A stretch of DNA of 23,572 nt from a virus. A program made the translations under genes and the position numbers. The stretch spans positions 1 through 23,572 of IMG/VR virus record IMGVR_UViG_3300035228_000752. The stretch is one strand, 5' to 3'. The notes under the pieces were generated by a model. It was not told where the DNA came from and did no database searches. It worked only from the letters and a program-made list of their open reading frames with translations. Each line of letters begins with the position of its first letter. The stretch's first letter is position 1. Positions 2,888-4,533 of this stretch are shown piece after piece.

Positions 2888-3547
2888 CTATTGGTTTTTT
2901 GAATTAGCAGTTTCCCAATCAGCTTGGAATAACTCCAATCCTTTATCTGTAAGGATATGATTATACATTCCCCAGAATACCTTAGGAGGTATAGTACAAA
3001 CATCAGCACCTGCTGCAAAGCATCTACCAACTTGATTCACTTCACGAACTGAAGCAGCAAGAACTTGTGTTCTTACTCTATGAAGTGAATATGTCTCAGC
3101 AATTGCCTGAATCAATGCAATACCACCAAAGGAATTATCATTGAGTCTACCTACAAAAGGTGAGACATAGGTTGCTCCTGCTTTTGCAGCAAGAATTGCT
3201 TGAGTCACTGAGAAAATTAAAGTGACATTGACTTTGAAACCTTCATCTGTAAGTGTCTTACATGCTTTGAGACCTTCTACTGTGCAGGGAACTTTGATAG
3301 TGACTGCATCACCAAGAGGGATATACTTTCTTCCTTGTTCTATCATTTCAGTAGCAGTATCTGCTACTACTTCTGTAGATACGCTGATAAGATTGGGACA
3401 ACTCTGAATCAATTCAGTAGTAACATCCTCAATAGTTCTACCTCCTGCTAAAATTAAAGTAGGATTTGTGGTCACTCCATCAATAAGACCTGTTCCATAT
3501 GCCTTTACAATGGATTCAACATTTGCTGTATCTAAAAATATTTTCAT
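2888..3547 (-). CDS. talC: Transaldolase, TalC/fructose-6-phosphate aldolase-like
   Basis: 219 residues, the usual length of the short TalC class. It moves a dihydroxyacetone unit between sugar phosphates in the pentose phosphate pathway. A single (beta/alpha)8 barrel shows MKIFLDTANVE (Asp6), DGVTTNPTLI at 23-32, STEV (Glu59) and AVTIKVPCT with the Schiff-base Lys85. Further on are NVTLIFSVTQA and the phosphate-side residues around AASVRE. All expected catalytic residues are present. Cyanophages commonly carry talC as an auxiliary metabolic gene; together with gnd-like genes it is thought to raise NADPH and pentose supply for phage DNA. Its ATG overlaps the stop of the upstream petE remnant (TAATG). 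No Shine-Dalgarno is obvious. Confidence 0.96.
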   Translation of the reverse strand: MKIFLDTANVESIVKAYGTGLIDGVTTNPTLILAGGRTIEDVTTELIQSCPNLISVSTEVVADTATEMIEQGRKYIPLGDAVTIKVPCTVEGLKACKTLTDEGFKVNVTLIFSVTQAILAAKAGATYVSPFVGRLNDNSFGGIALIQAIAETYSLHRVRTQVLAASVREVNQVGRCFAAGADVCTIPPKVFWGMYNHILTDKGLELFQADWETANSKNQ

Positions 3548-3660
3548 TAGTTTAAGTGAATAACACCAATCATACCTGCGCCTTTATGGGGTCCACACTA
3601 GTAATTATAGTCGCCTTCATCTTGAAATGCAACTACACTATCTAGTATATTTTCAAGTCT
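3547..3660 (-). pseudogene. petE: Plastocyanin C-terminal remnant with in-frame stop
   Basis: Reading the minus strand in the frame that ends TAA at 3547-3549 gives VVAFQDEGDYNY, then TAG (3598-3600), then CGPHKGAGMIGVIHLN. This is the C-terminal copper-binding end of plastocyanin, Y-C-x2-H-x4-M, with Cys, His and Met ligands all kept and the stop in the place of the second tyrosine. Another stop lies at 3661-3663, and I see no plastocyanin sequence further upstream, so only about 37 of roughly 100 codons survive. Its terminal TAA overlaps the talC ATG, the arrangement expected for an operon of active petE and talC. The gene has decayed but the junction is preserved. A tiny chance remains that the stop is a sequence error, but the missing N-terminus argues against that. 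Confidence 0.8.
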
Positions 3661-3693
3661 TTATACCTAGACCTGTTCTGACTTCCTGACTTA

Positions 3694-4005
3694 TTATCTG
3701 CTCTTAGGTTCTACTGCAGAAACAACTTCAGGTTCTTCTTTCTTTTTCTTTGCAACTGCTCCAGCAACAGCTGCCTTAGCAGGACTCAGTCCAAATGCTG
3801 CTAGTGAGCCAGAAAATACTGAGGCGATAAAAGTAGGATCAAAATCTAAAATCTTTTGTCCATTAGGAAGTCTTACGTAGCTAAAGGTTAATAGGGAAGC
3901 AGACCAAATAAGTACTACGACTTTCACTAAATTACCAAGAACTTCACTCTTATCTTCATCATGGTCTTTCTCTTCTGATTTTGCCTTGGGTGTGTTACCA
4001 AGCAT
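3694..4005 (-). CDS. Membrane protein, 103 aa, unknown, behind a late promoter
   Basis: The N-terminus is highly charged (PKAKSEEKDHDEDKSE). A membrane span follows at about residues 26-43 (LVKVVVLIWSASLLTFSY), then LPNGQKILDFDPTFIASVFS with a second weakly hydrophobic stretch. The tail has a basic KKKK block and acidic residues. ATG 4005 lies 25 bases downstream of a TATAAATA late box and directly after a terminator, so it heads the late transcript that includes talC and the downstream genes. Late timing suggests a virion or assembly role; that is inference only. Confidence 0.8.
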   Translation of the reverse strand: MLGNTPKAKSEEKDHDEDKSEVLGNLVKVVVLIWSASLLTFSYVRLPNGQKILDFDPTFIASVFSGSLAAFGLSPAKAAVAGAVAKKKKEEPEVVSAVEPKSR

Positions 4006-4029
4006 TTTAATGAGAGATGAGGTTAAAAA

Positions 4030-4037
4030 TATTTATA
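4030..4037 (-). promoter_or_regulatory. T4-type late promoter box
   Basis: The minus strand reads TATAAATA, an exact match to the T4 late promoter core. It begins directly after the T-run of the terminator at 4036-4062. The expected start of transcription is near 4024, giving an about 19-base leader before the ATG at 4005. No -35 element is needed for this promoter class. Confidence 0.7.
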
Positions 4038-4062
4038 AAAAAAGAGGGTCCTTAGCCCCTCT
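4036..4062 (-). terminator. Rho-independent terminator after the hli group
   Basis: On the minus strand a 6-bp stem AGAGGG/CCCTCT (4062-4057 with 4048-4043) closes an 8-base loop and is followed by a run of T residues. The stop codon of the 45-residue gene (4052-4054) lies in the loop. It separates the early hli unit from the late unit. Confidence 0.8.
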
Positions 4063-4189
4063 CAAATGCTGGTTGCATCATACCACCATCAGGTGGACCA
4101 TCATCCTCATTATCTTCTTGCAGTAATGAGGAGATAACTCCAAGTATTGCAACTCCTGTAAACAACTGAATAATTATTTCAGTGGTCAT
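4052..4189 (-). CDS. Small membrane protein, 45 aa, unknown
   Basis: ATG 4189, TAA at 4052-4054 inside the terminator loop. It has an N-terminal hydrophobic span (MTTEIIIQLFTGVAILGVIS), then an acidic, Gly/Pro-rich tail (LLQEDNEDDGPPDGGMMQP). A GAGG ribosome site lies about 8 bases before the ATG, and the gene starts 16 bases after the hli stop. It is the last gene of the early hli unit. The size and single span resemble small photosystem-associated proteins, but no specific family can be claimed. Confidence 0.8.
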   Translation of the reverse strand: MTTEIIIQLFTGVAILGVISSLLQEDNEDDGPPDGGMMQPAFERG

Positions 4190-4471: not shown

Positions 4472-4505
4472 ATTACTTTTTACTATTCCCCTTATCTATT
4501 CCACT

Positions 4506-4533
4506 ATTATAGCAGACAATTTTCAAGTGTCAG
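4506..4533 (-). promoter_or_regulatory. Sigma70-like early promoter with extended -10
   Basis: Minus-strand elements: -35 CTGACA (4533-4528), 16-base spacer, -10 TATAAT (4511-4506) preceded by TGC, an extended -10. It lies between the 72-residue hli (its -35 overlaps the hli stop) and the ATG at 4471, giving a leader of roughly 28 bases. Confidence 0.75.

Follow-up and report, generated by a model that had tools for sequence, protein, structure and literature searches.

The DNA immediately upstream of an intact talC in the window (the whole 23,572-nt stretch that was analyzed) is, with a probability that we place at about 0.94, a petE pseudogene of a marine T4-like cyanophage, generated by a 253-bp deletion between direct repeats of AGTTGCAT in an ancestor whose petE and talC genes overlapped. 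The plastocyanin remnant itself is real and far beyond chance, and its origin can be read by comparison with L189 (IMGVR_UViG_3300020431_000133), a contig found by searching for overlapping petE-talC junctions. The features concerned are the following:

2888..3547, minus strand: talC, transaldolase / fructose-6-phosphate aldolase family, intact, 219 aa (PF00923, E = 3.2e-55)
3547..3634, minus strand: petE 3' remnant, comprising the last base of codon 79, codons 80-107, and the stop TAA (PF00127 match and L189 alignment)
3547..3573, minus strand: possible 8-codon ORF, MIGVIHLN and stop, running from the former copper-ligand Met to the TAATG at talC (read directly; function putative)
3598..3600, minus strand: in-frame TAG for TGG (Trp), before the copper-ligand Cys (codon comparison with L189 and L170)
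3627..3634, minus strand: deletion junction with a single AGTTGCAT copy, of which L189 has two (window/L189 comparison)
3629..3644, minus strand: element conserved upstream of petE, TAGATAGTGTAGTTGC, intact (constant spacing to the petE ATG across leaders)
3657..3676, minus strand: second, weaker conserved leader block acaggtctaggtataaagac, ~20 nt further upstream (leader consensus)

A profile search matched PF00127 (Copper-bind) to the minus strand at 3553-3636 (E = 1.2e-7; 26.7 bits against a cut-off of 21.2), but the match covers no more than positions 71-98 of the 99-position model and contains one TAG. Translated searching likewise found plastocyanin homology (tblastn with the petE of L189 as query, 3e-12), bearing out the initial annotation, which had read the copper-binding end of plastocyanin on this strand. 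The minus-strand frame from 3633 translates as VAFQDEGDYNY, a stop, CGPHKGAGMIGVIHLN, and a final stop, and the Cys, His, and Met of the C-terminal copper loop are all present (CGPHKGAGM, read directly at 3597-3571). The N-terminal part is gone, as had been claimed; relative to L189, codons 1-79 are missing, and the remnant has no start codon, signal peptide, or N-terminal copper-ligand His. Its reading frame is interrupted by a single in-frame TAG (3600-3598), which had been taken to replace a Tyr. However, L189 and L170 have TGG (Trp) at this position, and in the window's codons, TAC TAG TGT, the Tyr (TAC) is retained while the Trp has become a stop. The remnant had also been drawn from 3547 to 3660; up to 3634 this span is indeed derived from petE, whereas 3635-3660 is noncoding petE upstream leader. 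The residues ILDSV, obtained by reading through in the remnant's frame, come from the petE leader before 3634 and were rejected as plastocyanin.

The stop TAA of the remnant (3549-3547) overlaps the talC ATG (3547) by 1 nt, the final A being common to both (TAATG at 3549-3545), in agreement with the earlier description of this junction. A TAATG stop/start overlap was present in 25/46 distinct petE-talC junctions counted, the window included. In L189, L170, L002-L004, and the Synechococcus phage S-BM3 (OQ319121), gene order, strand, and the 1-nt TAATG overlap are as in the window, and the petE upstream element stands at the same distance in L189, L170, L003, and S-BM3. In contrast to the window, however, the petE of all these phages is full length (107 codons), with a start, a signal peptide, and all copper ligands. 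The junctions uphold the proposed ancestral petE-talC pair, as genes that overlap. TAATG overlaps also join the petE stop to the starts of many downstream genes besides talC (L088, L106, L160, and others), and the petE 3' end seems to be a recurrent overlap partner, in a sample that was fetched by the TAATG pattern and is biased as to frequency.

When the window was aligned with petE-talC junctions of relatives, as originally recommended, L189 proved to have, in the same flanking context, a petE that is intact at 107 codons. The two contigs are ~92% identical across the petE-talC region; their talC genes are identical at 632/660 bases (95.8%) and the encoded proteins are 96.8% identical, the remnant matches the same stretch of L189 petE at 79/87 bases, and upstream of the junction identity is 60/60 over 60 bp and 119/120 over 120 bp. 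On the talC strand of L189, AGTTGCAT occurs at 1488, in the petE leader, and again at 1741, from the end of codon 79 to codon 82, the copies being 253 bp apart. Thus, the intact relative has two breakpoint copies and the deleted allele has one. Such a deletion between 8-bp direct repeats is what slippage or short-homology recombination usually produces. Considering that the L189 region contains three repeats of at least 8 bp, AGTTGCAT included, where ~1.5 would be expected after shuffling, the repeat supports this route but is alone no proof of it. The converse event, insertion of petE into a window-like ancestor to give L189, was rejected, being contradicted by the petE coding remnant in the window. 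We therefore favor a course in which petE and talC would have overlapped by one base, an arrangement still kept in relatives, until deletion between the 8-bp AGTTGCAT copies in the leader and in codons 79-82 took away codons 1-79 of petE together with the start and signal peptide; the 28 codons left behind would later have acquired the stop (TGG to TAG) plus other changes.

Among the records searched, the exact junction was present in one contig only, and when further contigs with the fossil were sought by the pattern YTATAATTACTRGTGYGGNCCCCA, only the intact L170 and L189 matched. A junction in a single contig could also arise if the phage's petE were in fact intact and had collapsed in the contig through an assembly or sequencing artefact. 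We judge this very improbable, since the remnant differs from L189 at 8/87 positions, including the stop, while the adjacent upstream flank differs at 1/120, and since another petE wreck occurs in two separate contigs (L008 and L010). Also counting against an artefact, assemblers join sequences via overlaps much longer than 8 bp.

The leader in front of the pseudogene retains the petE upstream element. Many loci have TAGATAGTGTAGTTGC in the petE leader (L189, L170, L091, and L083 among them), about once per genome where present. Across 88 distinct petE leaders, a count that omits loci fetched by the motif itself, GATAGTGTAG was matched at 9-10 of 10 positions in 37, against ~0.3 expected; 56 leaders matched at 8 or more positions, and in 55 of these GATAGTGTAG starts 23-26 nt before the petE ATG. 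The 12-mer TAGATAGWGTAG occurred four times in 12 long or complete records, three times directly upstream of petE. By its distribution, TAGATAGTGTAGTTGC is petE-associated, and it is a candidate promoter or RNA-level signal. A sigma-70 scan returned promoter-like sites no more often than in shuffled sequence, and the coding strand of the petE leader had none; an Rfam search of 3300-4100 returned no RNA family. Since TAGATAGTGTAGTTGC survives in the window, talC is now probably the first gene behind this element, and the fossil would constitute the talC 5' leader.

Similar losses beside talC occurred independently at least twice more in related phages. L005, whose talC is 76% identical, has a petE wreck before an intact talC; part of the N-terminal half is kept, most of the signal peptide is lost, there is a 7-bp duplication, and only about two codons are left before the TAATG (compare L002). 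In L008 and L010, petE is reduced to GTIHVN and the stop (the last 6-7 codons) with talC intact, and the petE of the neighbor L014 is intact. L189 is the window's sister in the talC tree (100/96), and L170 joins them next (98/91); both relatives have an intact petE, and each wreck groups with intact sisters on well-supported branches. Since this placement requires three changes, the tree indicates that petE has been lost beside talC at least three separate times in these phages. That talC was kept each time suggests that petE can be dispensable in phages where talC is not.

Among 251 distinct talC upstream regions, 66 had a full petE directly upstream, two a partial one, and one a short stub. 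Phage isolates gave no petE fossil: each of the 401 phage records with a match spans 80% or more of petE, which makes such remnants rare there. A genome scan for host petE yielded as its sole record a contig of a MAG titled Euryarchaeota (L493, NHGE01000043.1), with a petE 75% identical to that of L189, then a talC start; the sequence after this petE resembles phage petE-talC junctions, and the contig is probably misbinned cyanophage DNA. For the S-TIM5 PetE (L082, 2797-3069), the annotated start looks too late, as the frame reaches an ATG at 2746 that restores the signal peptide.

It had been suggested that the 3' end of petE may persist because it provides the talC start. Spelled out, the remnant would be selected as a translational leader on which initiation at the ATG of the former copper ligand is followed by translation of MIGVIHLN, termination at the TAA, and reinitiation at the talC ATG. 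Its TAATG overlap is retained, and talC's own Shine-Dalgarno signal is weak where petE lies upstream (mean -1.6 kcal/mol), with the KGAG codons before the Met ligand supplying a stronger Shine-Dalgarno-like stretch (mean -6.2 kcal/mol; in the window, a modest AAAGGCG 5' of the MIGVIHLN ORF at -3.5 kcal/mol). However, this stretch was not clearly different between petE genes followed by talC and those followed by other genes (means of -6.2 vs. -5.5 kcal/mol). The signal also occurs in petE genes with other partners, and the window and L189 have it in identical form; it is thus a consequence of the encoded protein sequence. The old petE stop ends some short ORF in all three wrecks, yet a short ORF reaching a given stop, and capable of coupling, is expected about half the time by chance; moreover, many talC genes lack an upstream petE. 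In E. coli, termination-reinitiation can make do with the final 15 nt of the preceding gene (PMC10666635); if translated, the L008 stub, short as it is, could thus couple to talC. L005, however, has lost the Shine-Dalgarno-like stretch entirely and keeps talC with only about two codons of the petE 3' end, which argues that the copper-loop part is not needed. Selection of the remnant as a leader thus seems unlikely. It is quite unlikely that petE has been converted as a whole into a control leader for talC, with the upstream element driving talC and the copper-loop codons AAAGGCGCAGGTATG acting as both ribosome-binding site and start of an 8-codon ORF that leads into talC via the TAATG.

We consider it probable that a recent deletion left the fragment behind as inert DNA, which is on its way to being lost, and that talC starts independently. 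Divergence from L189 is higher in the remnant (9.2%) than in talC (4.2%) or the leader (0.8%), and the wreck in L008 and L010 has eroded to its last few codons. Amino-acid-changing and silent codon differences stand at 4:3 in the remnant vs. 7:20 in talC, which is not a significant difference (p = 0.18). Against inertness, all wrecks retain the sequence adjacent to the talC ATG, as would be required if any of it were needed for initiation.

Other differences were observed near the locus. At 2325-2879 on the minus strand, the window has a gnd-like gene of 184 aa with the NAD-binding domain only (full-length gnd is ~345 aa); L189 has it too, the two copies differing at 16 codons with and 14 without an amino-acid change, and domain-only versions of ~156 aa occur in other phage contigs. 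At two further indels relative to L189, at ~4500-4530 and 2014-2017, the window lacks a ~310-bp stretch with a 76-aa ORF and a ~350-bp stretch with two small ORFs.

The initial annotation had concluded that this lineage lost electron-carrier supplementation and kept talC. The comparisons support the local part of this claim, the loss of petE next to an intact talC within the 23,572-nt window. Phage-wide loss of plastocyanin is unproven, because the window covers 23,572 bases and petE can sit far from talC, as in the ACG-2014f records (petE near position 957 and talC near 176,800). The locus presents a metabolic gene in the course of disappearing from a phage; its intact sister allele is known, and the likely molecular route is fixed.

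With respect to known systems, the window resembles those in which termination-reinitiation has been described at overlaps of -1 and -4 nt (PMC10666635) in its TAATG overlap and short upstream 3' piece; those systems are E. coli and Haloferax reporters, whereas the window has no intact upstream gene. Decay of the carbon-metabolism cassettes of cyanophages, petE among their genes, was described in 2010, in an account of degraded zwf/gnd/petE/PTOX cassettes in T4-like cyanophages (Sullivan et al., 2010; PMC3037559). As in the window, host-derived metabolic genes there decay piecemeal and leave remnants. The portion of that paper considered here reports zwf remnants and a degraded cassette in P-RSM4, and contains neither a petE fossil fused to talC nor a repeat-mediated deletion. 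Gene decay of this kind is therefore known; the present addition is one particular event for which the intact sister allele is available, together with its recurrence in relatives.
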